DNA of 64,000 nucleotides, taken from Cytobacillus oceanisediminis 2691 (GTDB taxonomy: Bacteria > Bacillota > Bacilli > Bacillales > Cytobacillaceae). Below, piece after piece: positions 21,637 to 55,132 of the stretch. A program made the position numbers and the translations under genes. Location of the stretch: positions 387,569 to 451,568 of the forward strand of contig NZ_VEEP01000003.1 of the NCBI RefSeq assembly GCF_007678455.1, read 5' to 3'. The number at the start of each line of letters is the position of its first letter. Position 1 is the first letter of the stretch. The notes under the pieces were generated by a model. The model had not been told where the DNA came from and did no database searches. It worked only from the letters and a program-made list of their open reading frames with translations.

Positions 21637-21943
21637 CTTAGACATTTTGACTGGTATTCCACTCTGAAATGTCCATTAAACCCACTTTCTTAGACATTTT
21701 GACAGAGATGCCTCTCTGAAATGTCCATTAAACCCACTTTCTTAGACATTTTAACTTAGATGCCTCTCTGAAATGTCTATTAAAACCACTTTCTTAGACA
21801 TTTTGATTGGCATCCCTCTCTGAAATGTCCATTAAAACCATTTTCTTAGACATTTTAACTGAGATGCCTCTCTGAAATGTCCATTAAAACCACCTTCTTA
21901 GACTTTTTGATTGGCATCCCTCTCTGAAATGTCCATTAAACCA
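21637..21943. repeat. 52-bp tandem hairpin array R1 (6 units)
   Basis: CTTAGACATTT starts at 21637, 21689, 21741, 21793, 21845 and 21897, exactly 52 bases apart each time. Each unit also carries GAAATGTCCATTAA, so GACATTT and AAATGTC form an inverted repeat. The most variable part is the roughly 10 bases after GACATTTT. The array lies between convergent genes. The same family recurs at 53466-53718. Confidence 0.95.
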
Positions 21944-21986
21944 TCATCAACTATACATCATCAGTGAATTTCACTTCTTTCCTCAA

Positions 21987-22018
21987 CAAAAAAACAACCA
22001 GCCCCACCTTCGCTGATT
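21987..22018 (-). terminator. Minus-strand terminator
   Basis: AATCAGC...GCTGGTT stem on the minus strand followed by TGTTTTTTTG. It follows the decayed genes at 22.4-22.9 kb. The region 22019-22370 holds no supported gene. Confidence 0.55.
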
Positions 22019-22370
22019 GCCTCGATAGCCACACTTGCTATCCTGCCTAGTATTTATATTAATGGAGAAATATAAAATCCGTTGCCTGAATTTGTTAAGA
22101 CTTTTTTAACATCTGTTAAAGAAGATAGAAGTGGGCACATACCAATAGGAAATTAATGATGACTTTGTAAACCATCGCCAACACTCCTTAAATTATGAGA
22201 TCCCTTACATCTATACTTTAGCACAGTATTGTAAAGATGGAATGAAGCAAATTCGGCTATTTTGTAAACATTTTACCGTTTTTCCTATTTTAATGTAGCT
22301 TTGTTAGCGTCTTCCATCTAACTCCACAGCCAGGTTTACCTTTGATAAGTTTACTAAGGGTATCATTCAT

Positions 22371-22451
22371 TTACTCAGGATCTCCACTCTGTTTCCAACC
22401 TGCATAATCATGATGCATAATATGGACGATATCTTTAAAAATGGCATCCAT
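22371..22451 (-). pseudogene. N-terminal remnant of an S41-peptidase-like gene
   Basis: The minus strand encodes 26 residues, MDAIFKDIVHIMHHDYAGW and KQSGDPE, then a stop. This resembles the start of S41-family (C-terminal-processing-like) proteases in Bacillus. The rest of the gene is missing. Directly downstream of the broken acetyltransferase. Confidence 0.35.
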
Positions 22452-22452
22452 A

Positions 22453-22914
22453 CTATCCCTCCCTGCATCTAAAAATGCTTATGTAATAGTCCTCCACAGG
22501 AAAATCTCCGATATATTCAAAGCCATTCTCGCTGTAAAAGCTTTTTAACTTTTCATTTCCTGCCCAGCAATCCAGATACAGTTCCTGCCCGAAACCTCGT
22601 ACTTTTTGACATGCCCAGGACACAATATCAGCACCGTATCCTTTTCCCTAGTAATCGGGGTGTAGAGCTAGCTGGTATAAGTATTTTACGGCTCCCTCAA
22701 TATGCCATTGCCCCACATCTTTAATGCCAAATGTCCCGATAATTTTTCCATCAACTGATGCAACATACAAAAATCCAACCTGTTCCAGCAGCTGTTTTTC
22801 ATTCCATGGGTAATTCCACTGATTCACACCTTTTTGGTGTAGAGAAAGCGAAGCTGCATTTAACACAGACAGGATTTCACTAACATCCTCTATCTCTGCT
22901 GATCGGATTTCCAT
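22453..22914 (-). pseudogene. GNAT N-acetyltransferase interrupted by an amber codon
   Basis: The frame starts at ATG 22914 (MEIRSAEIEDVSEIL) and continues to TAG at 22453, about 150 codons, with a single in-frame TAG at 22648-22650. The stop falls at LALHPDY-stop-GKGYGADIV, exactly where the acetyl-CoA loop (normally Q/R-GKGYG) begins, so a CAG-to-TAG change is likely. The sequence after it is fully protein-like (LYLDCWAGNEKLKSFYSENG). The mutation looks recent. The gene starts five bases after the methyltransferase stop. Confidence 0.85.
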
Positions 22915-22919
22915 ACCAA

Positions 22920-23657
22920 TTAGCCATGCTTCCTGCAAGCGAACATCAATACCAGCGGAATCCTTATCCTCCGCTCGTATTCTTCCCTGGTGGAGAAGTT
23001 TTCGGCTTTCGGAGTCCCTTCTCTCAGGTCTTCTATCATAAAACCAGCTTCCAATAAGAGGGTGAAATACTCTTCGACTGTTCGATGGTATTTGATTACC
23101 TTTTTCCCAATCCAAGGTTCAGAGCGTTCTCCCTGGTTGAAATAATCATCCACAATCCAGTCAGTTCTTCTGCCGCTGCCTTCAGCACTTTTCGAGGAGG
23201 AGGTGAGTACCGGGTGCTGAACGCTGAAAACAAACCTTCCGCCGGGGATCAGCGAGTCGTGAACCTTTGTAAAAATACTGCCTAAGTCCTCTAAATAATG
23301 CAGTGCAAAACGAGAAAGGACTAAATCATATTCCTCTGCCAGCGGTTGCCATTCTTCCATTGAAGCGTGCAAAATCTGGCCAGCAGTGCCTTTCAAATTT
23401 CCCACTGCAACATGCATCATATTTTCGGAACCTTCCAACCCGATATATGCACCAGCACCTTCTCTCAGGAGTTCAACCCCTATCTCGGCATCGCCGCAAC
23501 CCAGATCGAGTATCTTTTTACCTTTCACATTCCCCATTAACTCGAGCAAGATTGGTTTTTCTATACTATTATTTGGACTTTCAGGCCGTGTTCTTCTCTT
23601 CATGTAATTCTTGAAAAAATCCTCTTCCTCATAAGCCGATGACCCTTTATACTCCAT
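22920..23657 (-). CDS. Class I SAM-dependent methyltransferase
   Basis: 245 residues with motif I ILDLGCGDAEIG (about 48-59), an acidic residue ending strand 2 (YIGLEGSEN), and the post-I motifs LVLSRFALHYLED and LIPGGRFVFSV. The substrate is unknown; such genes are often annotated as ubiquinone or small-molecule methyltransferases. It heads the broken GNAT gene. Confidence 0.8.
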   Translation of the reverse strand: MEYKGSSAYEEEDFFKNYMKRRTRPESPNNSIEKPILLELMGNVKGKKILDLGCGDAEIGVELLREGAGAYIGLEGSENMMHVAVGNLKGTAGQILHASMEEWQPLAEEYDLVLSRFALHYLEDLGSIFTKVHDSLIPGGRFVFSVQHPVLTSSSKSAEGSGRRTDWIVDDYFNQGERSEPWIGKKVIKYHRTVEEYFTLLLEAGFMIEDLREGTPKAENFSTREEYERRIRIPLVLMFACRKHG

Positions 23658-23706
23658 AAAACCCCTCCGTTCCCTTAATAAGTTAAATCTTCAATATTTT
23701 ATCAGA

Positions 23707-24144
23707 TTAAGGGTGAATAGGAATATATATTTCTATCATTTCTATATCATTCTCAACAGGATGATAGGTTTCAATTATGTAGCTTCCATCGAGTTCCTTT
23801 TGATATCCCTGTCCATCGATCCACTCATCAAGTGTTGAATACAATTTACCGATTTCATTCCCTTTCCCAGAGATCATTCCGTAACTATGCTGAATTTCTA
23901 AGAATTCAATTTCCTCCGGCAAGGATACAGGCTTTTCCTCCACAAGGATTCCTACGTAAAATATCCCTTCAACATGACTGTTACTTGCTTTTGGCTCATA
24001 AACTGTCACTTCGGTTCCCTCATTATTCGGCATACGCTGTAAAAACTGCTGTGCCGCCTGAGGTACCAGCTGTGCATAATTTTCAAATGGCCCACTATGT
24101 TTCGACCCAATCACTTTAAATTCCCTGTTCACAACCTGGCACAT
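23707..24144 (-). CDS. GyrI-like/AraC effector-binding domain protein
   Basis: 145 residues forming one GyrI-like small-molecule-binding domain: FKVIGSKHSGPFENY at the start, Y-E in the middle, and the closing pattern LYSTLDEWIDGQGYQ...YHP...EIYIPI. No DNA-binding domain is present. Stand-alone members bind hydrophobic compounds. It lies in the same orientation as the upstream phosphotransferase, 11 bases away, so probably an operon. Confidence 0.75.
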   Translation of the reverse strand: MCQVVNREFKVIGSKHSGPFENYAQLVPQAAQQFLQRMPNNEGTEVTVYEPKASNSHVEGIFYVGILVEEKPVSLPEEIEFLEIQHSYGMISGKGNEIGKLYSTLDEWIDGQGYQKELDGSYIIETYHPVENDIEMIEIYIPIHP

Positions 24145-24155
24145 GTTTGACCCTC

Positions 24156-24923
24156 CTAAAAAAATTCGTATAAACCTTCTTTAAAGTAAAGGTATTCTTC
24201 ATCTGATACTCGGTATCTGGTATATCCTTCGTAAAAAGGAGCCAGCAATTCCGGCTTATCCCTGAATTTTCGAATCGCCAGAGATTCATCATAACGAGGG
24301 TCCCCAAGCGTCATACCAGCAACATCGATAAACAAACGGACTTCTCCATCCACTACCAATACATTATCTGAGGTACAGTCTCCGTGGATGGTCGTTTGTT
24401 TTACCTTTTCCGGTTTCCCTCCTTCCAACTGTTCCAATAATGTTAAATTGCCATCAGCCTGTCCTGACTCAGCGTATAATCGAGCCCTGGCCAACTGGGT
24501 TTCAAGCCAGTCGGTTTCTGATTCTAAAACGGCTTCCTGCTCGTGAAGCTGATTGATAAACTGACCAAAATTCCTGACCAGCCTTTGTTTTTCCTTCATA
24601 GTCCCGGCCTTTTTTAATGCAGCAGTCAATGTAATTCCATCCTCAAATGACATCAGCAAATGGCTGGCATCCTCTTCCTCGACGAAACCATAATACTTCG
24701 GAACAGGAATGGAATTTTGATGGGATAAAATTTGAAGCACTTCTGCCTCTGAGTGTAGCCACTCTCGATATTTTTTCTTAGTCGCACTTTTCATGATGTA
24801 AATGCCGTCTGGTGTAACAATCTTGCAGACTTCCGATGTGCAGCCTTGTTCAGGGAGTTTATTGATCTCCGTTATCTCCCCAAGAATACCTGCAAATAAT
24901 ACCTTTTTACCGTTCATAAGCAT
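24156..24923 (-). CDS. Aminoglycoside phosphotransferase-like (APH) kinase
   Basis: About 255 residues. APH/ChoK signatures: YIMKSATKKKYREWLHSEAEVL for ATP binding, TIHGDCTSDNVLV (catalytic loop, HGD) and LFIDVAGMTLGDPRYDE (metal-binding Asp). The real substrate may be a sugar or antibiotic; resistance is not shown. The start is uncertain; ATG 24923 after GGGGGC overlaps the stop of the DUF899 gene by 17 bases, while the frame stays open to 25037. Confidence 0.75.
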   Translation of the reverse strand: MLMNGKKVLFAGILGEITEINKLPEQGCTSEVCKIVTPDGIYIMKSATKKKYREWLHSEAEVLQILSHQNSIPVPKYYGFVEEEDASHLLMSFEDGITLTAALKKAGTMKEKQRLVRNFGQFINQLHEQEAVLESETDWLETQLARARLYAESGQADGNLTLLEQLEGGKPEKVKQTTIHGDCTSDNVLVVDGEVRLFIDVAGMTLGDPRYDESLAIRKFRDKPELLAPFYEGYTRYRVSDEEYLYFKEGLYEFF

Positions 24924-25488
24924 GTTTCGGCCCCCAGTTTCTGCTTCCATCCGGTAACAATTCAAAGAGTGACCATATGCTGCAGTAATCATCACCAGGG
25001 CCGAAAGTTGCTTTTGAGTAATGCTTAATTGTTCCATCCTCTTCTTTCAATAATATGGAAACTCCTGGCCAAAAACCCTCGGCATTTTTAAACCCGAGGT
25101 CGTCTTTAAAAGTTGTCCCCTTTGTCGAAACGCTTTTGAATTTCCAGTCTCGTTCCTTGGAAAAAACCGATAATGTTTGGTAATCATCCGGACTTGTTAA
25201 AACAAATGCCGCCCTGTTCTCAAGGTGTGGTGTAAACCCACTGAATCCATCTGCCCATAAAGTGCAATAGGAACAGGATTTCCCCATATTATGTATAACG
25301 ATCAATTCATTTTTATCGCCAAAAAGCTCACTTAAATGTACCTTACTGCCTTCGGTGTCAGTCAGTTCATAATTGGTTACTGCGAAAGAAGGATGCTGCT
25401 TGCGCAAAACGGCCAGCTCCTGTTTTACAAGGATCAATTCTTCCTCTTTTTCTTGTATTTCCATTTCTAATCGTTTAATAGGCTCCAT
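24907..25488 (-). CDS. DUF899-family thioredoxin-like protein
   Basis: 193 residues. A coiled N-terminus (EMEIQEKEEELILVKQEL) precedes a thioredoxin-like fold with ELIVIHNMGKSCSYCTLWADG, where C-S-Y-C takes the redox position, and GPGDDYCSIW near the end. DUF899 members have unknown function. Start ATG 25488 follows GGGGGA at six bases rather than the first ATG at 25509. It overlaps the next gene. Confidence 0.8.
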   Translation of the reverse strand: MEPIKRLEMEIQEKEEELILVKQELAVLRKQHPSFAVTNYELTDTEGSKVHLSELFGDKNELIVIHNMGKSCSYCTLWADGFSGFTPHLENRAAFVLTSPDDYQTLSVFSKERDWKFKSVSTKGTTFKDDLGFKNAEGFWPGVSILLKEEDGTIKHYSKATFGPGDDYCSIWSLFELLPDGSRNWGPKHAYER

Positions 25489-25505
25489 CAATATTCCCCC
25501 TTTTA

Positions 25506-26066
25506 TCACAATTCAAAATGTTCTCTTACCCGACTGGCAACCTCGGCTGCAGTTAAATTGGTGTTATTAATCCGAATATAGTTCGCTCGTTCAATTTCAC
25601 CTTCATATGAATTTAAGCGATACTGATCCATTGATTTCAGCAAATCGTTTTCGGACCGTTCTATGTTTCGCTTGGAAGCTTTTTGCTCCAGCCGATATGT
25701 ACTTCTGTTTCTTACGAGCCTCTCTTCCAGGTCTGCCTCAAGCTCAACAAAATAAACCGAGCCGCCTTCTGACTCGAATAATTGGCAAACTTTCTCGACA
25801 TACTCCCAGTCTTCCTTTATATCAAACGCCCAGACATACGTGAAAATCATTCCGCTTTGATCACTTTTTGCCATAGCTTTAAAGAGCTCTTCTCGAAACA
25901 GGCCAACTAGCCTTTTCCCTTCCCTTGTCCCATAGTCAAAAAAGGGATTTACCAACTCAATCGTCATATGATTATGAAAAAGTTTTAAATCAGTTATTTT
26001 TTCCAGTTCATGCCCCACTGTCATTTTCCCTACCGCCTGCGGGCCAAATATCAAGACAAACTTCAT
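25506..26066 (-). CDS. P-loop AAA/shikimate-kinase-like protein
   Basis: 186 residues with Walker A GPQAVGKMT at residues 8-16, a LFHNHMTIELVNPFF segment, and a lid region rich in Arg (RLVRNRSTYRLEQKASKRN). This is the pattern of small shikimate-kinase-like proteins of unknown substrate in Bacillus. Its ATG overlaps the TGA of the upstream VOC gene (ATGA), indicating translational coupling. Confidence 0.78.
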   Translation of the reverse strand: MKFVLIFGPQAVGKMTVGHELEKITDLKLFHNHMTIELVNPFFDYGTREGKRLVGLFREELFKAMAKSDQSGMIFTYVWAFDIKEDWEYVEKVCQLFESEGGSVYFVELEADLEERLVRNRSTYRLEQKASKRNIERSENDLLKSMDQYRLNSYEGEIERANYIRINNTNLTAAEVASRVREHFEL

Positions 26067-26482
26067 ATTGACTCCTCTTCCATCTTCTTTTTATACTCTT
26101 TGCTTAGCTCACTCCATACATCGAATTTATTTCCATCGAGATCATAAAAAACAAAATTGCGGCCAGCATGTCCCCGGTTTTCAATCTCACCGACATTCAT
26201 TCCTAGTTCAATAAAATCAGCATGCATCGCTTCAAGAGTGTCCTCACCATCAACTTCATAAGTAAGAATGAACCTTTCTGTTCCATTTACATCCCTAAAA
26301 TTTGAACTTTCACCCGGAGACTTCACCAAAAACAGACTAATATCAGCCAAGTTCATAATTGCCTTATCTTCATCCAGATAATTTAAACTTGCACCAAGCA
26401 TATCCTTATACCAATCCGATGATTTCGATGGTTCTATTACCGGTATGTAAATTGTCCCAACTCTGATTAATTGATTTTTCAA
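26063..26482 (-). CDS. VOC (glyoxalase/bleomycin-resistance) family protein
   Basis: 139 residues: one VOC domain pair with IYIPVIEPSKSSDWYKDMLG at the start and FVFYDLDGNKFDVW at the end, the usual metal-binding Glu being replaced by Asp or Trp region residues. Substrate unknown. First gene of a coupled run with the kinase, DUF899 and APH genes. Confidence 0.8.
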   Translation of the reverse strand: MKNQLIRVGTIYIPVIEPSKSSDWYKDMLGASLNYLDEDKAIMNLADISLFLVKSPGESSNFRDVNGTERFILTYEVDGEDTLEAMHADFIELGMNVGEIENRGHAGRNFVFYDLDGNKFDVWSELSKEYKKKMEEESI

Positions 26483-26560
26483 TTCCCTCCACCTCTGTTA
26501 TAAAGATTCTCTATTTCACTGATATCCCCTTCTTATTTGTTTAAAAATTCCATATTTAAA

Positions 26561-26587
26561 AAAGCACACCCGAAACGAGTGTGCTTT
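26561..26587. terminator. Hairpin upstream of the VOC operon
   Basis: AAAGCACAC pairs with GTGTGCTTT around a nine-base loop. It lies between the VOC operon and the 106-residue gene on the same strand and may end the latter's transcript. Confidence 0.6.
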
Positions 26588-26718
26588 AAGCTCTATCTTT
26601 TATCCAGTCGTTGTATGAATTTATAAAATACAAACAATCTAAAACTTTCCACCTGCCATATACTGCGGGGCCTATAAAAAATTAAAGACAAGAACCATCC
26701 GACTATATGAAAAAAACT

Positions 26719-27039
26719 TCACTCTTTCCCCTTGATTTTCTCCCTTAGTTCCTCTAACTCCTCGATTGAAAGGCCGCCAAGAGCTTGTGATATTTCTGAT
26801 TCGATCTCTTTTCTGTTTCTTTCACGATATTGATCCCACCAGTCCCGGAGACCCTCCGTGTTGTTAAGCAAATATTCGATGTCAATAACCTCGACTTCAT
26901 CATCGGAAATATAATTAAGTACGGCTGCCAACATTTTATTTAATTTTTCAATTTCATTATTTTCTTTGTCTTGATGGATTTCTTTTTCCAGACCCTCAGC
27001 TTCTTGTACATCAGGATTCTCTGCTGCTTTCCGTGGCAA
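26719..27039 (-). CDS. Small charged protein of unknown function
   Basis: 106 residues, strongly acidic and helical (heptad-like Leu/Glu pattern, SIEELEELREKIKG at the end), no membrane segment. A central DDEVEVIDIEYLLNNTEGLRDWW stretch is distinctive. AGAAGGTGAG precedes the ATG. No family recognised. Confidence 0.65.
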   Translation of the reverse strand: MPRKAAENPDVQEAEGLEKEIHQDKENNEIEKLNKMLAAVLNYISDDEVEVIDIEYLLNNTEGLRDWWDQYRERNRKEIESEISQALGGLSIEELEELREKIKGKE

Positions 27040-27141
27040 GGTCTCACCTTCTTTTTTACCTTTTAGTATGCATTATTCCCTAAAGATTGGATTTTTATTG
27101 AACAGATAATTCCCCCCCCATGTTACATTTTTAATGATGAG

Positions 27142-27420
27142 GTGGTACATTTGCTATGTACATTATCCTTAATGCTGCTTTATTATAATCAATGGACTCA
27201 TAACAGCAAGCCCGCTGGAATAGTCCTAAAGCTATTTCCTTTCACCATTCCCCAGGTATTGATTGAGACGTTCGCTGCCAAAAAAACAGATTTAATCACA
27301 TGGAGGAAGGGTTGGACAAGGTATCACTCATTCATTAGTTTAGCGATTAAATTATTGTTATGCCGAGGAATCATTTCAACCATCCGAATCATCAATAAAG
27401 ATGATCTCTCAGTAGATTAA
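27142..27420 (+). pseudogene. Possible truncated membrane protein (CBO0543-like C-terminus)
   Basis: A 92-codon frame from GTG 27142 without a ribosome binding site. Its second half, IPQVLIETFAAKKTDLITW and a following RKGW motif, resembles the end of CBO0543-type multi-helix membrane proteins, which are longer. The N-terminal helices seem to be missing. It ends in a good terminator, which suggests a former gene. Confidence 0.4.
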
Positions 27421-27428
27421 TATCCTGA

Positions 27429-27460
27429 AAAAGACCAAATCAAAGGATGATTTGGTCTTT
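27429..27460. terminator. Bidirectional terminator
   Basis: AAAGACCAAATCA and its complement form a 13-bp stem between converging reading frames. Confidence 0.85.
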
Positions 27461-27472
27461 AGCGATTTTCAA

Positions 27473-27838
27473 TTATCGATGCCTTGTAAAACCTAAATAA
27501 CGTGTTCCTTGAAAAGTCAGTTCTCCATCATCACCTTCAACCAACTGGCCGTACTCCTGTCCGTTTACATGAAGCTCCAATCTGTCTCCACTATCAAACT
27601 CAAATGTCACATAATAAACATTACGTGCTGCAGTTTCTCCACCTCCGCGCACGCTCGTTCTTTTGGTTACAACTTTAGCGAATGAGTTTACGCGTGGTGA
27701 TTGGTTATTTTTACTCCAGGTACCTAGACTTTTGATAATCGTAAAAATTACTATGCCGAATACCAATATAAAGACCGCTCCTATAAAAATAGGGCCAAAC
27801 GTAAACATAAAATCCATTCCCATTGGTTCTTCTATCAT
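27473..27838 (-). CDS. DUF2500 domain membrane protein
   Basis: 121 residues. An N-terminal helix (FIGAVFILVFGIVIFTII) is followed by a small beta domain: SFAKVVTKRTSVRGG, VYYVTFEFDSGDRLEL and YGQLVEGDDGELTFQGTRY. This matches DUF2500, found mainly in Firmicutes; function unknown. GGGGGAGGAT precedes the ATG. Confidence 0.8.
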   Translation of the reverse strand: MIEEPMGMDFMFTFGPIFIGAVFILVFGIVIFTIIKSLGTWSKNNQSPRVNSFAKVVTKRTSVRGGGETAARNVYYVTFEFDSGDRLELHVNGQEYGQLVEGDDGELTFQGTRYLGFTRHR

Positions 27839-27916
27839 GAGCCATCCTCCCCCTTGTCACTCAACGCTTATATATCTTTACGAAAATATAAGAAAAAAGA
27901 TTCAAATCATTTCCAA

Positions 27917-28372
27917 TTACATTATCGTATCCATCAGTTCAACTTCGATTTCCTTCGGATTCGACCAGTCATGAAATACTTCCAAATGCCATTGATCCAT
28001 CAATCTTCGATATCCGTTTCCTTCAATCCATTGATGAAGCTTGCTATATGTTTCTCTTATTTTTTCATTAGATCCTTTGTGCCGTATGACCGCATATCTT
28101 TGTGCTGGAATCCTCAGGGTCACCATGTTTTCAGGAATGTCCTCGTAGTCAGATACTTCAACACAAACCCAATAACCATCCTCCTCGTCTGAACAACTGT
28201 CAACAACAAAAGCCCCATGCTGCAAAGATGGATTTAATACATTCTTTATTTCATGTACTCGCTCACTCAATTGCTTTGATGCTTTCGGAATTTCCTCGAT
28301 ATATTCATTACCAGGACAGAATACCCGGATGCCTACTAGTTTAATTTCTGAACACTGCTTGATTTCAGTCAT
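27917..28372 (-). CDS. GyrI-like/AraC effector-binding domain protein
   Basis: 151 residues, a single GyrI-like domain with LVGIRVFCPGN, GYWVCVEVSDYEDIPENM, YAVIRHKGSNEKIRETY and LHQWIEGNGY. A second, diverged stand-alone copy of this domain lies at 23707-24144. Ligand unknown; no DNA-binding part. Confidence 0.78.
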   Translation of the reverse strand: MTEIKQCSEIKLVGIRVFCPGNEYIEEIPKASKQLSERVHEIKNVLNPSLQHGAFVVDSCSDEEDGYWVCVEVSDYEDIPENMVTLRIPAQRYAVIRHKGSNEKIRETYSKLHQWIEGNGYRRLMDQWHLEVFHDWSNPKEIEVELMDTIM

Positions 28373-28431
28373 AGCCTATTCCTCCCCTCATAGCTGCTTG
28401 ATATAACATTACTATGCGTGAATTTTAAAGA

Positions 28432-28932: not shown

Positions 28933-28951
28933 CCAGAACTCCCCTAGTATT

Positions 28952-31429: not shown

Positions 31430-31580
31430 TCGGACATTTTTTCGCTCATGCACGTTCCCGTTAGTCTGATAGAGTCTGTTTATCGGACACTTTTCTACGC
31501 TGCACAGTTTGATTTGTCCTTTAGAGCCCTTCTACCGAACACTTCTCACTCTTGGACGCTTCAGTTTGTCCGAAAGAGTC
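31430..31580. repeat. Degenerate 52/53-bp array R5 (about 3 units)
   Basis: TCGGACA-like anchors start at 31431, 31484 and 31536 (spacing 53 and 52). TGTCC-type complements (TTTGTCC) precede the GACA arms. Units are more diverged than in the other arrays. It lies between divergent genes. Confidence 0.6.
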
Positions 31581-31682
31581 GTTTTTTTTTTAAAACTAGT
31601 TTCTAAAATGATCTTTTATAGATAACATCCACCCTCGAATATGGTAAAATTATGTAAAAATAATCTAACGAGGTGCTACCTA

Positions 31683-34220: not shown

Positions 34221-34700
34221 AGAAACTTTTCCTCTTGTTCTCGCTCTTTTTGTCAGTCATAAAGGCTATGTTGGACACTTTTCCTCTGGTTCTCACCCTT
34301 TCTGTCCGTCATCATGGCAGTGACGGACACTTTTCCTCTGATTCTCACTTTTTCTGTCCGTCATCAAGGCTATGACGGACACTTTTCCTCTTATGCCCGC
34401 TCTTTTTGTCCATCATCAAGGTTATGATGGACACTTTTTCTCTTATTCTCGCTCTTTCTGTCCGTTATCAAGGCTATGATGGACACTTCTCCTCTAATTT
34501 TCGCTCTTTTTGTACATCATCAAGGTTATGATGGACACTTTTTCTCTTATTCTCACTTTTTCTGTCCGTCATCAAGGCTATGACGGACACTTTTCCTCTT
34601 ATGCCCACTCTTTTTGTCCATCATCAAGGTTATGATGGACACTTTTTCTCTCAATCTCGCTCTTTTTATCCATCTTCAACGCTATAAAGGAAACTTCCTC
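34221..34700. repeat. 52-bp tandem hairpin array R2 (about 10 units)
   Basis: GGACAC-type anchors start at 34221 (degenerate), 34273, 34325, 34377, 34429, 34481, 34533, 34585, 34637 and 34689 (degenerate), exactly 52 apart. Each unit holds TGTCCGTCA-loop-TGACGGACA or TGTCCATCA-loop-TGATGGACA, where both arms change together. The spacer is TTTTCCTCTTATTCTCGCTC-like. It lies between same-strand genes. Confidence 0.95.
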
Positions 34701-42587: not shown

Positions 42588-42792
42588 ATGTATATCCCCC
42601 ATACGCCTCAAATGCTTAAATAGTTTAACAAATATTTGTAAAATGGGGAAGATTTTTTCTTTTACGAAAATCAGCTTTTTGGTATTCTTATCCTAAAAAG
42701 CGAACATTATCTATTTATTAGATTAAGAAAATACGGTTTTAATAGTTGAAGAATACAAAAATGATGTTATAATGACTATAAATTAATTTATT

Positions 42793-42859
42793 CACTCATA
42801 TAATCGCGGGGATATGGCCTGCAAGTTTCTACCGGATTACCGTAAATGATCTGACTATG

Positions 42860-42863
<4 letters not shown>
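42793..42863 (+). promoter_or_regulatory. Guanine-type purine riboswitch of xpt-pbuX
   Basis: CACTCATA at the start pairs with TATGAGTG at the end (P1). The loops carry TATAATCGCGGGGATATGGC and GTTTCTACCGG..CCGTAAAT, and the core reads CTGACTATG. The base that pairs with the ligand is C (GACTATG), which means guanine or hypoxanthine rather than adenine. Ligand binding would switch off xpt-pbuX. Confidence 0.95.
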
Positions 42864-44917
<2,054 letters not shown>

Positions 44918-45009: not shown

Positions 45010-45612
45010 TTTCGGGCGTAATCGGCTTTATTGGTGACTTCTTTTTCCTAATACTAGAGTTATTGGGGACCATTAAGCTCTATTGATTACACCATTTTCT
45101 AAAAACTGGAGTTTAAGGGTACCAATAAACTTTATTGGTTACAACAATTTCTAAATAATGGATTTCGAGGGTCTCAACAAGCTCTATTGGTTACACCATT
45201 ATCCAAATACTGGTTTTTCAAGATCCCAATAAGCTCTATTGGTTACACCATTTCCCTTATTTTGGATTTTAGCGGCCTCAATAAGCTCTATTGGTTACAT
45301 AATTATCCAAATACTGGATTTCCAGTGCCCCAATAAGCTCTATTGGTTACACCATTTTCCTGAATATGGATATTCAAAGCCCTAATTAGCTCTATTAGTT
45401 ATAACATTATCTAAATACTGGATTTCCAGGTTCCCAATAAGCTCTATTGGTTACATCTTTATCCAAATAATGGATTTTCAGGGCCCCAATAAGCTCTATT
45501 GGTCACATCATTTCCCTAATACCGGAGTTTCAGGTGTCCAATCGACTTCATTGGCGACCTCTTTTTCCTTATACTGGATTGCAAGGGCACCAATCAAGCT
45601 AATTAATCACCT
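45010..45612. repeat. 52-bp tandem hairpin array R3 (12 units)
   Basis: The TATTGGTTAC anchor recurs, measured at the preceding base, at 45028, 45080, 45132, 45184, 45236, 45288, 45340, 45392, 45444, 45496, 45548 and 45600: eleven intervals of exactly 52. Core CCAATAAGCTCTATTGG is an inverted repeat; a unit with CTAAT also has ATTAG, and one unit has ACCAATAAA-C-TTTATTGGT. Outer units are degenerate. It lies between the convergent pbuX and mccB genes. Confidence 0.95.
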
Positions 45613-47714: not shown

Positions 47715-48182
47715 CTATTCAGCAAAAACCTGGCGCCATTCATCTTTCTTTTCCAGCATTTTCGCAGCAATTTCTTTAGCACCCTCTAAGCTGTGGCTTG
47801 CAGCCCAGCCGCACTGGATTTCGTTGCATGCTGGCACCTCATCTGCCTCAAGTACATCATTCAGTGTTTTTTCCAGTACATTGAGGATATTGTCGTAATC
47901 ATCATGATTGATCACAGAAAGGTAGAATCCAGTCTGGCAACCCATAGGACTGATGTCTACAACTGTATCATGATGGTTGCGGATATTTTCAGCCATTAAA
48001 TGTTCCAGCGAGTGAAGACCTGGCATTTCCATATGTTCCTTGTTCGGCTGGCAGAAGCGGATGTCATACTTATGAATGACATCCCCATTCGCACCCTGAG
48101 TTGTCCCAGCTAGCCTGACATATGGGGCAGCAACTTTTGTGTGATCAAGATTAAAACTTTCCACATTCATTTTCTTAACCAT
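47715..48182 (-). CDS. luxS: S-ribosylhomocysteine lyase, AI-2 synthesis
   Basis: 155 residues. The metal site is [10 protein letters not shown] (HxxEH, about 57) with the distant Cys in [16 protein letters not shown]; the active-site Cys lies in [10 protein letters not shown]. Converts S-ribosylhomocysteine to homocysteine and the AI-2 precursor DPD. Start ATG 48182 overlaps the mtnN stop. Inserted between mtnN and mccA, it completes the route from S-adenosylhomocysteine. Confidence 0.95.
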
Positions 48183-48879
48183 TATTCTTCAACTCCTCTA
48201 ACATTAGTAAGATTAGTTCTGCGGAATTTTTAGCGGCCGTTTCAAGGAATTGATCGAATGAGACATTCGAGTCTTTCCCTGCAATGTCTGATAAAGACCT
48301 GATGATGACAAATGGCACTTGAAATTGATGGGCAACCTGAGCGATTGCTGCTGCCTCCATTTCCGCAGCATACAACTCAGGCATCTTGCTTCTGATGAAC
48401 TCAACCCTTTCAGGATCGTTCATAAATGAATCACCAGATGCAATCAAGCCCTTCACAACCTGAATGTCATTGATTTTTTCAGCGCTCTTTTCAGCGACAC
48501 TTACCAGGTTGTCATCCGGTGAAAAATAAGCCGGCATCCTTGGTACCTGGCCATATTCATACCCAAAGATTGTCACATCTACGTCATGGTGTCTTACCTC
48601 AGTTGAGATGACGACATCACCGACATTCAGCTCCTTATGGAAACCGCCGGCCGACCCTGTGTTGATGATGACATCAGGATGGAACTTTTCAATCAACAAG
48701 GCTGTTCCCATTGCCGCATTTACTTTCCCAATTCCCGACTTTAGCAGTACAACTTCCTGGTTATCAATCTTGCCATTGTAAAATTCACTTCCGGCAAGAT
48801 TAATCTCTTCGATGTCTTCCATTTTACTGCGAAGCAAATCCACTTCTTCATCCATTGCACCGATAATTCCAATTCTCAT
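48175..48879 (-). CDS. mtnN: 5'-methylthioadenosine/S-adenosylhomocysteine nucleosidase
   Basis: 234 residues. [14 protein letters not shown] with catalytic Glu at the start, [20 protein letters not shown] and [13 protein letters not shown] with the catalytic Asp. Removes adenine from MTA and SAH. It lies 24 bases after yrrT and overlaps luxS. Confidence 0.95.
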
Positions 48880-48903
48880 TGCTGCAACTCTCCAATACTG
48901 TCT

Positions 48904-49551
48904 TTAATTTTTGTTTACCTTAACAGCCTCCATCAGCCAAACATAGGGATTCATCTTTTCAAAACGAACCTCAAAACCGTTTTTTTGAAAAAGATGTTTC
49001 AGTACTTCAAGAGTTGTATAGTACTCACGCTGAAGGTCTTCAAGGAGATTATTGAAACCCTGCTCTTTTACGATGCGATGCCTTTCCTCGCGATCCTTTT
49101 CATCCAAAAAGGCGGTATCAGCAAATACAATCTTTCCTTCAGCCTCTAACAATCCACTATATAATTTGATTGCGGAATCCTTTTCTTCATCTGTTAAATG
49201 ATGAAAAGCATAGGTGCTGACGATGGAATCAACTTTTTGGGGTAATTCAGGGAAATGAATAAAATCTCCATCATACAAGTCCATATCCAAAAATCTTGCT
49301 TTCGTTTTCTCCCTCATCACTTTGGAAGGTTCTACACCGTAGACCACTCTTCCCAGAGAAATCAGCTTTTCTGTCAGGTTACCTGTTCCGACTCCAAACT
49401 CCAGTACTGTCCCTGTTGACTTAGATGCTACTGCATGTAATATTCTATCATAATCTTCGAATACTTCTTTATACTCAGCATCATGTCCTGATACGGTTTC
49501 GTCATAAAATTCAGCCCAATCATCGAACAACGGGATAAATTCTCTCCCCAT
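48904..49551 (-). CDS. yrrT: SAM-dependent methyltransferase YrrT
   Basis: 215 residues with VLEFGVGTGNLTEKL (motif I), VYGVEPSKVM and IVSTYAFHHLTDEEKDSAI. Start of the yrrT-mtnN-luxS-mcc operon, the same first gene as in B. subtilis, where the operon is controlled by CymR. Upstream, GGAATTATAATAATT (near 49571-49584) is AT-rich and could be part of a CymR box, but this is weak. Confidence 0.88.
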   Translation of the reverse strand: MGREFIPLFDDWAEFYDETVSGHDAEYKEVFEDYDRILHAVASKSTGTVLEFGVGTGNLTEKLISLGRVVYGVEPSKVMREKTKARFLDMDLYDGDFIHFPELPQKVDSIVSTYAFHHLTDEEKDSAIKLYSGLLEAEGKIVFADTAFLDEKDREERHRIVKEQGFNNLLEDLQREYYTTLEVLKHLFQKNGFEVRFEKMNPYVWLMEAVKVNKN

Positions 49552-49740
49552 TTTACCTCACCCGCTTTTAATTATTATAATTCCTATCAGTATAGTATGA
49601 ATTAAAATATTATAAGACACATACTAGCACAGAAAAAATTTGAAATCAATTTTTTCTCGTCATTTTACGCTCAGCAAACAAGAAAACAACCCGGCAATAG
49701 TGTATACTTAATTCATATTAAGAACTTTCAGGGGGAAAAT

Positions 49741-50094
49741 ATGGGGAAGAGAGTATTGGTTGCAGAGGATGAGCAGAGGATTTGCCAACTGCTAAAGATG
49801 TACCTAGAGAGGGAGTCTTTTGAGGTTGAGGTTGCAAACAATGGTGTAACAGCACTGGAGAAAGCAATCCAAGGGTCCTTTGATATCATCATTCTTGACA
49901 TTTTAATGCCTGGAAAAGATGGTTTCACAGTCTTGGAAGAAATCAGAAAAACCAAAGCCACGCCCGTGATCATGCTTTCTGCTAAAGGGGAAGCAAATGA
50001 CCTTAAACGAGGGGAAGAATTAGGGGCCAGCGATTATATTTTAAAGCCCTTCAGCCCAAAGGATGTAGTGTCAAAAATAAAGGATTTAGTATAA
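49741..50094 (+). CDS. Orphan receiver-domain response regulator
   Basis: 117 residues, receiver only: VAEDEQ acidic pair, phospho-Asp in IIILDILMPGKDG (about 53), Ser in VIMLSAKGE, Lys in YILKPFSP. The sequence is closest to OmpR-type receivers, but no DNA-binding domain follows and no kinase is adjacent. AGGGGGA precedes the ATG. Target unknown. Confidence 0.85.
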   Translation: MGKRVLVAEDEQRICQLLKMYLERESFEVEVANNGVTALEKAIQGSFDIIILDILMPGKDGFTVLEEIRKTKATPVIMLSAKGEANDLKRGEELGASDYILKPFSPKDVVSKIKDLV

Positions 50095-50097
50095 ACA

Positions 50098-50128
50098 AAA
50101 GGCATTGTGCAGTTACAATGCCTTTTTA
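50098..50128. terminator. Bidirectional terminator
   Basis: AAAAGGCATTGT pairs with ACAATGCCTTTT around a six-base loop between convergent genes. Confidence 0.9.
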
Positions 50129-50130
50129 GC

Positions 50131-50772
50131 TTATAAAAACTGACAGTTCCGAATCTCCTGCAATTCTCCATAAAATTCTATTTTGTCGTTATCGATGACG
50201 ATACCATCACCATCGTTACAAAGGTATATTCCTTCATCATTGAGGGCGGAATAATCCAATAGCTTTTCGTGACGAGCTTCCAGCCGGCCCCCATGTGGCA
50301 TGAATTCAAATCCTACCAGTCCCAAACCATTCAGACAATCTAACTCCACTTCATTTTCATCCAGAAATGCCGCTATTTTAATGGAATGTGACATGATCAT
50401 GCTTCCTGCACTGACACCGATTAACAGCTTACCCTCGAGTGCCATCTTACTTATCAGTTTAAGCATATTCCGTTCCTGAAGGTTTTTCAAAAAGGAGAAT
50501 GTATTTCCGCCAGACAAAAAAATCCCGTCACAACCTTTGAATTCCTCCAGCTTACTTTCATCGAACTCCTGATCGACATCGAAATATAAGAAGTCCGAAA
50601 CACCCAGCTTCTCCAGCTCCCGCTTCCCTTTTTCAAAATACATTCTTTCCTTATCGGTTCCCGACGGGACATAGGCAAGCTTAAAAGGACTTTGAGACAT
50701 TAATTCCCCGATTCTGCTCACCAGAGCTGGATTATTATTACTGACCTCACTCAGCAGTACTAATTTTTTCAT
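50131..50772 (-). CDS. Peptidase S51-family protein (dipeptidase E-like)
   Basis: 213 residues. The nucleophile elbow GVSAGSMIMS (about 120) holds the catalytic Ser, preceded by GIFLSGGNTFSFL and followed by MPHGGRLEARHEKLL with the His. Aspartyl dipeptidases of this family cut Asp-X dipeptides; B. subtilis YgaJ is similar. ATG 50772 is preferred to the TTG before it. Confidence 0.8.
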   Translation of the reverse strand: MKKLVLLSEVSNNNPALVSRIGELMSQSPFKLAYVPSGTDKERMYFEKGKRELEKLGVSDFLYFDVDQEFDESKLEEFKGCDGIFLSGGNTFSFLKNLQERNMLKLISKMALEGKLLIGVSAGSMIMSHSIKIAAFLDENEVELDCLNGLGLVGFEFMPHGGRLEARHEKLLDYSALNDEGIYLCNDGDGIVIDNDKIEFYGELQEIRNCQFL

Positions 50773-50841
50773 CAAATCAAACTTTCAAGAATTTTTACCA
50801 GTTATGTTCAACATTCATCTCATTAAGTCCTTTAAAAAGCT

Positions 50842-50868
50842 GAAAAAAGAGCCTGGAAATCCAGACTC
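50842..50868 (-). terminator. Terminator of the MFS transporter gene
   Basis: On the minus strand GAG-T-CTGG-ATTT-CCAG-G-CTC followed by six T, directly after the stop codon. Confidence 0.85.
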
Positions 50869-50869
50869 C

Positions 50870-52165
50870 TCATTTTTTATTCGACCAAATCACAAATGGT
50901 ATCAACACAAGCGATAGTACCCCGCCTGCCAGAGATAAGAACGCAAAGCTCGAATTAGCCACGACCATGCCCGATAGCATCCCGCCAGACGCTCCTGACA
51001 ACGCGACCATAACATCAATCGTTCCTTGCATTTTTGCCCGGTTTGTTGGATTTGTTGCATCGACTAGCAATGCTGTACCGCTGATCAAACCGAAGTTCCA
51101 GCCCAGCCCAAGTAAGATGAGAGCCAAAGTAATCCAGAGCATGGACTCACCCGGGGCAACTGCAGCCATAACGCCTGAAGCGAGCAATGTAACTCCTGAA
51201 GCAACCGCCATTGCCGCGCGTCCGATTTTATCCACAAGCACACCTGTCAGTAAAGATGGAAGATACATGGCTCCAATATGGAAACCGATGACCATCCCCA
51301 CTGCACTCAAACCATGGCCATGACTCCCCATATGAACTGGTGTCATGGTCATGATCGCAACCATCACCATTTGGGTCAACACCATGATCAGAGCAGCCAC
51401 GGCAATACCCCGTTTATCCGTTGCTTCTTCTTCCTCGATAAACTCCCGTCTGGCGACTCTTGCATTCCGTTCTGCCAACGCTATTGCCCTTGCAACGACA
51501 AACGGGTCAGGACGAAGGAAAAATAACAGGATCAGACCTGCAACAATATAAGCTGCAGCAGCCAAAATAAAAGGTCCGGATAAAGCCGGAACTCCTACCG
51601 ATAGTGCGAAGTTCCCCATAACATCTACAAGGTTCGGACCGGCCACAGCACCAAACGTTGTTGAGACCATTGCAATACTGACAGCTGTCGCACGCTGTTT
51701 AGCACTGGCTAAATCGGTACCTGCATAACGAGCCTGCAAATTGGTCGCACTACCTGCACCATAAACCAACAGAGCTGCAAACAGCAGATATATATTATTG
51801 GTAACAGCAGCAATAATGACTCCAATTGCACCGATTCCACCCGTCAAAAATCCGGAAGCCAGGCCGGCGCGCCGTCCATACCGCTGGGAAAGCCTTCCGA
51901 CTACGAGGGCTGCCCCAGCCGATCCTAAGGTAAAAAGAGCGGTCGGAAGCCCGGCCACAGTATCAGTGCCAAGCATATCCTTTGCCAGCAACGCTCCTAC
52001 CGTGATTCCAGCAGCGAGACCTGCACCCCCAAAAATCTGTGAAAGGACAACGATGATTAATGTCCTCTTATATAAAGCTTTCTGCTTTTCGGGAGATTCC
52101 ACGTAAGCTTGCAGCCACTCCGGCTGACTCTCCGCCGCCGCTGCTTCATCATATTGTTTTGACAT
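50870..52165 (-). CDS. MFS transporter
   Basis: 431 residues with about 12 helices. The loop 2-3 motif is GRLSQRYGRRAGLASGF and the central loop is charged (ERNARVARREFIEEEEATDKRG). Likely a drug or metabolite efflux pump; no substrate clue. A soluble acidic N-terminus of about 30 residues precedes helix 1. Monocistronic. Confidence 0.88.
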   Translation of the reverse strand: MSKQYDEAAAAESQPEWLQAYVESPEKQKALYKRTLIIVVLSQIFGGAGLAAGITVGALLAKDMLGTDTVAGLPTALFTLGSAGAALVVGRLSQRYGRRAGLASGFLTGGIGAIGVIIAAVTNNIYLLFAALLVYGAGSATNLQARYAGTDLASAKQRATAVSIAMVSTTFGAVAGPNLVDVMGNFALSVGVPALSGPFILAAAAYIVAGLILLFFLRPDPFVVARAIALAERNARVARREFIEEEEATDKRGIAVAALIMVLTQMVMVAIMTMTPVHMGSHGHGLSAVGMVIGFHIGAMYLPSLLTGVLVDKIGRAAMAVASGVTLLASGVMAAVAPGESMLWITLALILLGLGWNFGLISGTALLVDATNPTNRAKMQGTIDVMVALSGASGGMLSGMVVANSSFAFLSLAGGVLSLVLIPFVIWSNKK

Positions 52166-52239
52166 TTTTTCAGCTCTCTCTTTCTCTTCATAGATAAATC
52201 AATTATACCACAAAGGGTATATTTCGGAGTGCAAATGAA

Positions 52240-52614
52240 TCAATAATTTTCAAGCTCAGCCAACAAAGACTGTTGTAAGACGTCGACATCCACCACTGCA
52301 GAGTCTATGTCCGCAGGAAAATTCGAGGGCTTGATTCCATCAGCCTTCATCCCTGGTATCCATTTTTCAAGCAAATCCTCCAGCTCAATCCTTTTTGGGG
52401 TGCAAGCTTCCCATTCGTCCTTTACAAAGGCTTCAGCGAATTTTTCATTAGGGAATAATGGCAGCAATAACCTTTCCATCTCATCCTTAGCGGTTGCCCA
52501 TCCATCATGGTATAGGCCCCAAACCTCTTCATAATCTGCGGCTTTTTTGATAAAGTACTCGTATCTAATCTTAGCAGGCTGCCGTATTACAGCCTCAAAT
52601 TCTTTTTGGTTCAT
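52240..52614 (-). CDS. DUF2750-like protein
   Basis: 124 residues: YEYFIKKAADYEEVWGLY near the start, DGWATAKDE, LLLPLFPNEKFAE and WEACTPKRIELEDLLEKW in the order typical of DUF2750. Cytoplasmic, function unknown. It follows the GNAT gene by 15 bases. Confidence 0.8.
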   Translation of the reverse strand: MNQKEFEAVIRQPAKIRYEYFIKKAADYEEVWGLYHDGWATAKDEMERLLLPLFPNEKFAEAFVKDEWEACTPKRIELEDLLEKWIPGMKADGIKPSNFPADIDSAVVDVDVLQQSLLAELENY

Positions 52615-52629
52615 AACCGTTCGTTTCTC

Positions 52630-53085
52630 CTATCTATGCCCGTCTTTTCTCGCCTGAATATATCCATAATAGGCGCAAGTCCCGTTCTGACTAAGATCCT
52701 TCACCTCGAAACCGCATTTTTCATAAAAAGTGAAGTTGTTCGCTGAAGTATGGGCAAACCAGTCTCCGTGAGGCAATTTTTGAAGACATAACTGCACTAG
52801 CTTCTTTCCGATACCCTTTCCTCTGTACTCCGATAGTACAGCCAGATCCATAATATTTGCAGCCATAATTTGATCTGAAATGACTCTGACCATACCAACC
52901 ATTTCATTATGGTCCCATACCGTGAAAGCCCAGGTAGAATTTCTAAATATCAATGTAAACTTCTCCTTTTGCCATTCAGGAGTATTCCTTGACCATCCAG
53001 CGTCTTGGAATAACTTCTCTACCTGACCTGCAGGAACCCCATTTGTACCTTCGCGGATCACCAATCCGTTAAAATACTGATACAT
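52630..53085 (-). CDS. GNAT N-acetyltransferase
   Basis: 151 residues. Core strand MDLAVLSEYRGKGIGKKLV with the R-G-X-G-I-G acetyl-CoA loop, then HTSANNFTFYEKCGFE. Substrate unknown. Forms an operon with the DUF2750 gene. Confidence 0.87.
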   Translation of the reverse strand: MYQYFNGLVIREGTNGVPAGQVEKLFQDAGWSRNTPEWQKEKFTLIFRNSTWAFTVWDHNEMVGMVRVISDQIMAANIMDLAVLSEYRGKGIGKKLVQLCLQKLPHGDWFAHTSANNFTFYEKCGFEVKDLSQNGTCAYYGYIQARKDGHR

Positions 53086-53224
53086 ACTTTTTCCCCTTTT
53101 TTATGTTTGTCAGGGAACTATATTCTTTATCAGCCACAAGATGTCCTGCCATAGTTTCACATTTACTTTTGCCGGTTAAATTCATCTGCAATGACAAAAT
53201 CTAATTAAAGGAGGTGCTTTATAT

Positions 53225-53377
53225 ATGGTCAGAATCCATAATCCTATTAATGCTGATAAAAACAAGCGAGGCACAGACGGACAATTACATGGCGGAACAT
53301 TAGAAACGGCAGATGAGTTTTTTGACTCGATTTTTCAGCAAGGAGCAAAAAAGAAGGCCGGAGACAAACAAAAATAA
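53225..53377 (+). CDS. Small soluble protein, 50 residues, unknown
   Basis: ATG 53225 is behind AAAGGAGG. The product is hydrophilic, VRIHNPINADKNKRGTDGQ then LHGGTLETADEFFDS, with a basic tail KKKAGDKQK. It ends in a strong terminator that overlaps its stop codon. The strong binding site and terminator support a real gene. Family not recognised. Confidence 0.72.
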   Translation: MVRIHNPINADKNKRGTDGQLHGGTLETADEFFDSIFQQGAKKKAGDKQK

Positions 53378-53400
53378 CGCCGATTTTGGCGTTATTTTTA
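53371..53400 (+). terminator. Terminator of the 50-residue gene
   Basis: AAAATAACGCC pairs with GGCGTTATTTT, then more T; the stem overlaps the stop codon. Confidence 0.9.
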
Positions 53401-53465
53401 TTGATTAGTTGAATCAGCCAATTCAAGATCCCCTCTATCCTTTTAAAAGGCCATTAAGAGAGTTT

Positions 53466-53718
53466 CTTAGACATTTCACCTTCTGTGCCACTTCAAATTG
53501 TCCATTAAATCCGGTTTCTTAGACATTTCCACTCCTAATCCACTCCGAAATGTCCATTAAATCCAGTTTCTTAGACATTTCAGTTCCTAAGCTACTCCAA
53601 AATGTCCATTAAATTCGGTTTCTTAGACATTTCAGCTTCTTAACCACTTCAAAATGTCCATTAAATTCGGTTTCTTAGACATTTCAGCTCCTTACCCACT
53701 TCAAAATGTCCAATAAAA
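53466..53718. repeat. 52-bp tandem hairpin array R1b (5 units, same family as R1)
   Basis: CTTAGACATTT starts at 53466, 53518, 53570, 53622 and 53674, exactly 52 apart. Each unit has AAATGTCCATTAA about 30 bases later. This is the family of the 21.6-kb array, 32 kb away. The linker after CATTT differs (CAGCTCCTTACCCACTTC-like here). It lies between convergent genes. Confidence 0.95.
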
Positions 53719-53731
53719 CTCCACTAATAAG

Positions 53732-53762
53732 AAAAGCACCCATCCATATGATGAGTGCTTGT
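53732..53762 (-). terminator. Terminator of yneF
   Basis: On the minus strand AAGCACTCATC pairs with GATGGGTGCTT (one wobble), then TTTCTT. Confidence 0.8.
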
Positions 53763-53771
53763 CCTTCTTTA

Positions 53772-53987
53772 TTATTTTCCTGTCTGCTTGTTCATTGCTG
53801 ACATCATTTGATTGATTTTCTTCTGGGATGGTTTCATACCCATTTGCATCATCATCATTTTAAGCATTTGTTCGTTGATTGGCGGATTTTTCTTTAAGTA
53901 GCTCTCCATGTATTTACGAGCAATGAAAAATCCTAGCGCTACACCGACAACTAATGCCAGTATACCAACTAGAATTATTGTCCACAT
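53772..53987 (-). CDS. yneF: UPF0154 membrane protein YneF
   Basis: 71 residues: one N-terminal membrane helix ([19 protein letters not shown]) and a Met-rich tail with [19 protein letters not shown] and [11 protein letters not shown], the hallmark of YneF. Start ATG 53987 follows AAGGAGG. In B. subtilis yneF lies next to sirA; same here. Function unknown. Confidence 0.93.
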
Positions 53988-54144
53988 AAAACTTCCTCCT
54001 TCATGTTGTCTAACATACAGTGTACTAAACCAACAGCTATTATACAATATCTGTGTATTTTTTTCTCTATCAAAAACACTCTTTAATGAACTTTTTCGTC
54101 ATTTTCTATAAAAAAGCTACCTCTAAAATGTACAGGTGAAAATA

Positions 54145-54585
54145 TCACACGTATTTCCGCTCTTTGATCGGCTTCAGCCATCCATATTTGTTTGATTCAA
54201 GGTCGATCGCAAGGAATGATGATTCACATTTGCGGAGGATTTCAAAGAAGACTGTTTCAGTATCGACTTGACCATCGGAATCCAACTCGAGCCACCTTTC
54301 ATGGACCCTAAGTATGGCTAAACTATTGTTTGTTTTGTTTTCATATACATATGTTCCGTTCTCGACATAAAACCCTTGTGTTTTGGAAAGCTGCTGATGC
54401 AGAAGCTGATGGATTCGAAGGGCAGGAATGGACCTGGTCACGAAGTCTACTTGTTTTGATATGATGGATTTCAAATAACCTTTTGCTTGACTATATTCTA
54501 GAAATAATTGATAAAACATCCGTTCTCTTCCGAAATAATGGGAGGCAAATTCATCTTCTATTAGATATAGCTGGTAGGATCTCAC
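54145..54585 (-). CDS. sirA: SirA, sporulation inhibitor of replication
   Basis: 146 residues beginning RSYQLYLIEDEFASHYFGRE, with LFLEY, ERWLEL and the C-terminal FLAIDLESNKYGWLKPIK. SirA binds domain I of DnaA and stops new replication rounds when cells enter sporulation; in B. subtilis it is switched on by Spo0A. The length is close to the 148 residues of the B. subtilis protein. Neighbour yneF agrees. Confidence 0.9.
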   Translation of the reverse strand: MRSYQLYLIEDEFASHYFGRERMFYQLFLEYSQAKGYLKSIISKQVDFVTRSIPALRIHQLLHQQLSKTQGFYVENGTYVYENKTNNSLAILRVHERWLELDSDGQVDTETVFFEILRKCESSFLAIDLESNKYGWLKPIKERKYV

Positions 54586-54774
54586 CTGATCCCCTCCTCT
54601 GCAGACAAGCTTTTGTCTTTATTATAGAAAAACCATCGGTCTGCGTTTGTCTAAATATGCCGAAAATATCCACTAATCTTGTCGAATTCAAAACTTTCTT
54701 ACATTTTATTATAAATTTTTTCTCTTCTATTGTCACCACTTTCACAGCAATGCCAATTTTGGAGTGAATGATAC

Positions 54775-55132
54775 CTTTTTTTGGAGCGAGAACCCTTGCA
54801 TAAGGGTGTTTTTCGACTTAAATGGTACCCTTATTGGCGCAAGAACCCTTCCATAAGGGTATCTCTTGCCTTGAATGGTACCCTTATTGGCGCAAGAACT
54901 CTTGCATAAGGATATCTCTTGCCTTGAATGGTACCCTTATTGGCACAAGAACCCTTGCATAAGGGTATCTCTTGCCTTGAATGGTACCCTTATTGGCACG
55001 AGAACTCTTGCATAAGGGTATCTCTTGCCTTGAATGGTACCCTTATTGGCGCAAGTACCCTAGCTTAAGGGTATCTCTTGCCTTGAATGGTACCCTTATT
55101 GGCGCAAGTACCCTTGCTTAAGGGTATCTTTT
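54775..55132. repeat. 53-bp tandem hairpin array R4 (7 units)
   Basis: The ATAAGGG anchor starts at 54800, 54853, 54906, 54959, 55012, 55065 and 55118, exactly 53 apart. Each unit carries TACCCTTAT and ATAAGGGTA as 9-bp arms and an inner GCAAG/CTTGC pair, so most of one unit can fold. The linker is CTCTTGCCTTGAATGG. It lies between the divergent sirA and azoR genes. Confidence 0.95.

Follow-up and report, generated by a model that had tools for sequence, protein, structure and literature searches.

Tandem arrays of 52- or 53-bp units are dispersed through the intergenic DNA of Cytobacillus oceanisediminis 2691, where six of them were pointed out by an earlier note on a 64,000-nucleotide stretch of this genome (the window; contig NZ_VEEP01000003.1, positions 387,569 to 451,568). 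Seven of their eight sequence families share one geometry, and anchors and arms are conserved; the arrays lie between genes, their units rarely change in length, their copy number changes by whole units, the mismatches in their inverted repeats have no RNA-wobble bias and, in the genus, they are polar with respect to replication. With confidence close to, but below, even, the arrays are best explained as intergenic duplex-DNA sites for a putative protein that would bind cooperatively, in helical phase and oriented along replication. The genus label Mesobacillus, used here for the source genome, was inferred in the analysis.

The census of the source genome covers fetched stretches of five contigs, joined into 1.63 Mb, or about one third of the 4.9-Mb genome; the array density in this set is possibly somewhat high because the contigs were picked among those matched by an array search. 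Tandem Repeats Finder (TRF) finds 137 non-redundant arrays in this DNA, 49 having period 52 and 8 having period 53, and when periods of at least 40 bp are considered, 57 of the 63 tandem repeats are 52 or 53 (the remaining six have periods of 48, 51, 56, 87 (twice) and 178). The repeat lengths in this DNA form a sharp 52/53 peak and not a broad spread, in agreement with what the earlier note had proposed. Merging of the period 52/53 TRF rows gives 60 arrays, which are the basis of the later counts. These have between 2 and 23 units, 55 of them are assigned to eight half-site families (five are unassigned), and solitary units account for 8 of the 60 clusters. According to a simple in-house gene finder, the arrays overlap with genes over 52 of 25,929 array bases, and of the 59 arrays with two called neighbours, 38 lie between co-directional genes, 11 between convergent and 10 between divergent ones. 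This gene context differs little from what is seen at other gaps.

The eight arm families are TTGACAG, TTCGGACA, TATCGGACA, TGAYGGACA, TTAGACATTT, TATTGGTGACC, TATGTGNCC and ATAAGGGTA, and seven of these have the common skeleton GACM-N25-KGTC-N19 (=52), with KGTC replaced by GGGC in some cases. When the spacings of GACM-d1-KGTC-d2-GACM are arranged as a grid, the cell (25,19) has 216 hits, compared with 9 in the runner-up cell and a median of 1 among the 468 non-empty cells. In the N19 segment, the palindrome extends 2 to 7 bp from each anchor, the arms being family-specific; longer arms are paired with a shorter junction, and therefore the unit total stays 52. The modal-base fraction within arrays (41 arrays) is 0.976 and 0.973 for the anchors, 0.919 for the arms, 0.868 for N25 and 0.833 for the junction, and identical arms are found in unlinked arrays with differing linkers. 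The idea that the arrays are unrelated in sequence is thus not borne out: a common origin together with a constraint fits better, because seven of the eight families share the GACM...KGTC anchors at fixed spacing.

Neighbouring units differ at 8 to 19% of sites, depending on the family, and the units detected by the fixed arm spacing have 8 length changes versus 2341 substitutions (0.003 indel events per substitution). The corresponding indel and substitution counts for non-array intergenic DNA, when compared with three relatives, are 23/225, 67/438 and 53/344 (0.10, 0.15 and 0.15). Off-period intervals are few among the commonest interval values. The length constraint that had been suggested is therefore supported by the 52/53 peak, the few length changes, the trade-off between arm and junction and the occurrence of the same length in other genera, whereas the common copying mechanism, suggested as its alternative, would by itself leave the scarcity of indels unexplained.

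When strands are assigned by GC skew, the leading strand is purine-rich in 57 of the 60 arrays (mean 0.603), compared with a mean of 0.520 for other gaps, of which 67% (of 412) are purine-rich. The signal resides in N25, whose leading-strand purine fraction is 0.61 to 0.78 by family, and is weaker in the junction (0.51 to 0.59, except for 0.84 in one family). A mutational strand skew is rejected as the cause of this polarity, since four-fold sites (0.526) and other intergenic DNA (0.521) reach only 0.52 to 0.53. The seven families with the common skeleton have 41 arrays with at least three detected units, and in 37 of these the purine fraction of leading-strand N25 exceeds 0.5. The six arrays between co-directional genes that oppose the fork all follow replication and not transcription, and so do 20 of the 21 arrays whose neighbours are convergent or divergent. 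The same polarity is seen in the complete chromosome of a genome of the same species (G006, whose first genes were read as dnaA, dnaN, recF and gyrB from translated starts), where 55 of 62 arrays fit one strand switch at a fitted point of about 2.41 of 4.80 Mb and 54 of 62 agree when the switch is placed at the midpoint; by family, the agreement is 27/28, 18/21 and 10/13 for three families. In another genus (G035), all five arrays of one 320-kb region match the local skew.

In the window, five of the six arrays are recovered by TRF at their positions, which confirms the observation of the earlier note; all are listed without strand. The TTAGACATTT family is present twice, at 21637..21943 (TRF span 21637-21940; period 52, about 6 units), 3' of a NERD-domain gene, and at 53462..53718 (TRF 53462-53717; about 5 units of period 52), in the interval bounded by a GNAT acetyltransferase gene and sirA. 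The TGAYGGACA/TGTCCRTCA-family array at 34225..34696 (TRF; period 52, about 9 units) has a Nudix gene on one side and a methyltransferase gene on the other, and the TATTGGTGACC-family array at 45010..45612 (TRF 45025-45600; period 52, about 10 to 11 units) is between the xanthine permease gene (pbuX) and an mccB-like gene, whose product has its closest named relative in M. subterraneus (92%). The ATAAGGGTA/TACCCTTAT-family array at 54765..55132 (TRF 54765-55129; period 53, about 7 units) is in the divergent gap between sirA and a flavodoxin-fold gene. The sixth array, at 31430..31587, consists of three decayed TATCGGACA-family units with spacings of 53 and 52 that are 50 to 65% alike; its motifs are present, but it is absent from the TRF output, and it rests on these motifs more than on self-similarity because the best sampled 52-lag identity outside arrays in the window reaches 54%. 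No tandem repeats of period 45 to 60 are found in 20 dinucleotide shuffles of the window. Each unit does have one inverted repeat and a linker, as had been claimed, and the period is 52 by TRF (53 in one array); the word "exactly" is slightly overstated for the array at 45 kb because of some indels (2%). Rfam covariance models have no match on the window arrays at gathering score. Their matches elsewhere in the window are a purine riboswitch at 42776-42877, 5' of a xanthine permease gene (89.6 bits), and two tRNA-Sec genes on the minus strand at 7917-8013 and 18498-18594 (50.9 and 56.1 bits), about 10 kb apart, which look like a duplication.

The copy number of the arrays was compared between the source genome and G006, for which 24 of the 60 arrays could be mapped (three families and one 20-kb stretch). 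The array length is equal within 1 bp in 8 of the 24, and in the other 16 it differs by 1 to 13 units, the length differences being within about 3 bp of whole-unit multiples; strain-to-strain variation is therefore by whole units. The flanks of the mapped arrays are mostly 97 to 100% identical, with one at 93%; five values of about 0.4 are probably failures of the ungapped comparison. Inheritance was followed in 20 orthologous Mesobacillus sequences (the source sequence plus those of 19 out of 20 relatives; some do not reach 20 kb). The TTAGACATTT array of the GNAT gene/sirA interval is present in 16 of these 20, and a TRF array of the TATTGG (TATTGGTGACC) family is present in 8 of the 16 orthologous pbuX-mccB gaps that were read, with one or two units seen by eye in 6 more. 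At a third place, 10 of the 20 sequences have a TATCGGACA array, and the 53-bp array between sirA and the flavodoxin-fold gene is confined to this species (2 of 20 sequences, with 7 versus 8 units). Each place retains its family, while the linkers and the copy number turn over.

The wider search used a five-anchor pattern, which is silent on anchor-less arrays because it selects for GACM itself. At family level, 145 of 193 genomes (18 of 25 genera) have this pattern; among 299 genomes sampled from the order Bacillales, it is present in 57, which belong to 25 of 116 genera and include 8 from Mesobacillus. The control at family level gives 6 matches in three genomes, one of which, G056, has 1/3 for the control versus 6/2 for the pattern. 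Exceptions at order level are G263, with 12/13 for the reversed control versus 26/29 for the pattern, and G353, with 3/4 for the control versus 0. The 320-kb region of G035, which was chosen for its pattern matches, has 10 tandem repeats of period at least 30, with period 52 in four and 53 in one. At 29 of 30 loci of other genera fetched by the pattern (a few single-match loci are possibly not arrays), complementarity over the first four positions is 76 to 97% in N19, versus 28 to 45% in N25. Among the matches listed, the arms TTCGGACA, TGAxGGACA, TTAGACA and ATGTGACC recur in further families of the order. By blastn, one TTCGGACA array had no relatives in either the plasmid or the phage collection; a three-unit TTGACAG pattern matched one 93.5-kb IMG/VR contig (L209) that is classed as viral and could be host DNA. 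Near the mccB locus of Rossellomorea aquimaris (L109 and L112), tandem repeats of 126 and 125 bp are present, also close to a multiple of the helical repeat.

On the pyrimidine-rich strand, the stem mismatches are 85 G.T versus 108 A.C (74 versus 78 when a column with a fixed mismatch in the TTAGACATTT family is omitted), and at the one degenerate arm position the two sides vary independently. Because of these mismatch types and the independent variation of the half-sites, the inverted repeat appears to be kept as two sequence sites and not as a fold. The two-site inverted repeat, the phase-like length, the clustering and the polarity together point to duplex sites that are bound cooperatively. 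Each 52-bp unit would then provide two inverted half-sites, made of the GACM and KGTC anchors and the family-specific arms, with the arms supplying an address for each family. As the period is about five helical turns, equivalent sites return on one face of the DNA, such that cooperative binding is possible. The purine/pyrimidine-asymmetric N25 would set the direction of the array along replication in Mesobacillus, and a machine travelling from origin to terminus (the replisome, SMC or a DNA translocase) would therefore meet nearly all arrays alike. Copy number would shift by whole units, and a unit of the wrong length would be selected against because it breaks the helical phase. Protein binding, cooperativity with helical phasing and a role in chromosome organisation or segregation are what we infer from these properties. 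The wider proposal, a Bacillales-wide chromosome-organising system of replication-oriented five-turn nucleoprotein arrays with a common anchor grid, interchangeable address arms and a putative set of DNA-binding proteins, is put forward with considerable doubt.

One lead on a binder comes from WhiA, whose motif in Streptomyces is given as GACAC, bound as a monomer (PMC3781837); a whiA mutant of B. subtilis is reported to show a reduction in short-range chromosome contacts (PMC10714963). The GACA anchors agree in part with this motif by motif comparison, and WhiA is a candidate reader of these anchors.

Several points weigh against the reading as protein sites. The 53-bp ATAAGGG family is without the GACM grid and its arms are almost evenly spaced, and the array indel count is biased low because the units were detected by fixed arm spacing. 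The orientation is opposite in 4 of the 41 arrays of the N25 set and in 7 of the 62 arrays of G006, and a third genus (G040; the listed part of one contig, with the origin not placed) has no clear polarity (10 of 15 arrays, mean 0.525). The arrays are dispensable, as 48 of the 193 genomes of the family and 242 of the 299 of the order are without the pattern; among 80 loci of mccB relatives (up to 21 kb each), chosen independently of arrays, only two have a 52-bp array (Heyndrickxia acidiproducens L148 and Bacillus sp. FJAT-27225 L124); and the persistence of single units at one place in several species suggests that arrays are not always needed. In addition, the several arm families per genome would call either for more than one binder or for a single tolerant one, and the patchy array distribution would be left unexplained by a protein as widespread as WhiA.

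The main rival is a selfish minisatellite without a cellular role that spreads and persists through slippage or recombination within the lagging-strand template, in which the palindromic half-sites would fold; the stable orientation would survive and the other would be lost. Orientation-dependent stability is established for other repeats, and the highly variable copy number (16 of 24 arrays within one species, by whole units) and the patchy presence among family and order genomes are in agreement with this explanation. It is nevertheless judged unlikely, as it leaves unexplained the fixed 52 bp with scarce indels, the sharing of arms by unlinked arrays whose linkers differ, the arm types that recur across genera and families and the rarity of solitary units, and the mismatch types and uncoupled half-sites oppose selection for folding. 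The arrays do resemble mycobacterial interspersed repetitive units (MIRU) and other intergenic variable-number tandem repeat (VNTR) minisatellites in being tandem and intergenic and in varying by whole units between strains. MIRU and other VNTR minisatellites have assorted unit lengths, whereas the arrays have one length across several sequence families and many genera.

A class of mobile repeats like REP (repetitive extragenic palindromic)/REPIN elements, or recombinase target arrays, copied by an enzyme that reads the half-sites, is improbable. The inverted half-sites, the intergenic location and the many copies would fit, as would a repeat of about 670 bp that encloses a short 52-bp array and is dispersed at 6 loci in G323 (L352-L357; main alignments 85 to 98% identical); this is a single case, not established as a general rule for array mobility. 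Against it, solitary copies are rare, the same family is kept at the same place across species and, with the Y1 transposase (RAYT domain) as the only recombinase type examined, transposase count does not track the arrays. PF01797 is present in 18 of 21 genus genomes and was not found in G016, G019 and G020; G016 and G020 nevertheless have 939 and 962 pattern matches, and a RAYT link is rejected. The nearest analogue is the BIME-2/REP elements of enterobacteria (PMC2817692, PMC3733652; BIME, bacterial interspersed mosaic element), which are likewise intergenic palindromic units of alternating orientation, clustered and many per genome. The arrays differ from these in their fixed 52-bp period, the GACM/KGTC grid with swappable arms, the polarity relative to the replication strand and the lack of a RAYT link. 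REP/BIME units are common singly or in pairs as well as in clusters, whereas solitary units are rare here. The arrays match no known REP/BOX-type family within the literature covered, as judged from Rfam and from the missing REP-transposase link.

The least probable explanation, an RNA-level element in which transcribed strings of hairpins terminate transcripts, make them pause in a Rho- or NusG-like way or protect them, with head-on ones as the main target, would use the inverted repeats within units and the pyrimidine-rich strand as head-on RNA, but is rejected as the main reading by the lack of G.U bias in the stem mismatches and by the independent half-sites, has no Rfam match at the window arrays, gives no obvious reason for a helical DNA period in RNA and is at odds with a gene context near that of other gaps and with terminator-like sites that are about equally common ahead of arrays (25 of 59) and at gene ends elsewhere (228 of 479). 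On these frequencies and the mixed gap types, terminators are rejected as well, bearing out the earlier statement that the arrays are not simply terminators.

The FtsK/SpoIIIE orienting sequences (KOPS, FtsK orienting polar sequences; SRS, SpoIIIE recognition sequences) are short octamers, with the motif GAGAAGGG. They are, like the arrays, polar, leading-strand biased and genome-wide, but do not form arrays. In the 1.63 Mb, GAGAAGGG is present in 31 leading-strand copies versus 4, and identity with SRS/KOPS is ruled out by the presence of only 3 copies within the 60 arrays (25,929 bp), even if this exceeds the roughly 0.5 copies expected by length.

No published description of the 52-bp arrays was recognised in the open-access literature, as judged by titles and the starts of abstracts. 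The arrays may be interspersed tandem repeats of a previously undescribed type, with a chance of a new chromosome system. If a protein reads them, much of the order Bacillales would have addressed, polar landmarks on its chromosomes that similarity searches miss because only the spacing and two tetranucleotides are shared, and helical-phase control of bacterial DNA length would become testable, with natural arrays that differ in address and dose within a single genome. As selfish elements, the arrays would still show that a minisatellite can be shaped, across an order of bacteria, by the direction of replication and by a fixed helical length.

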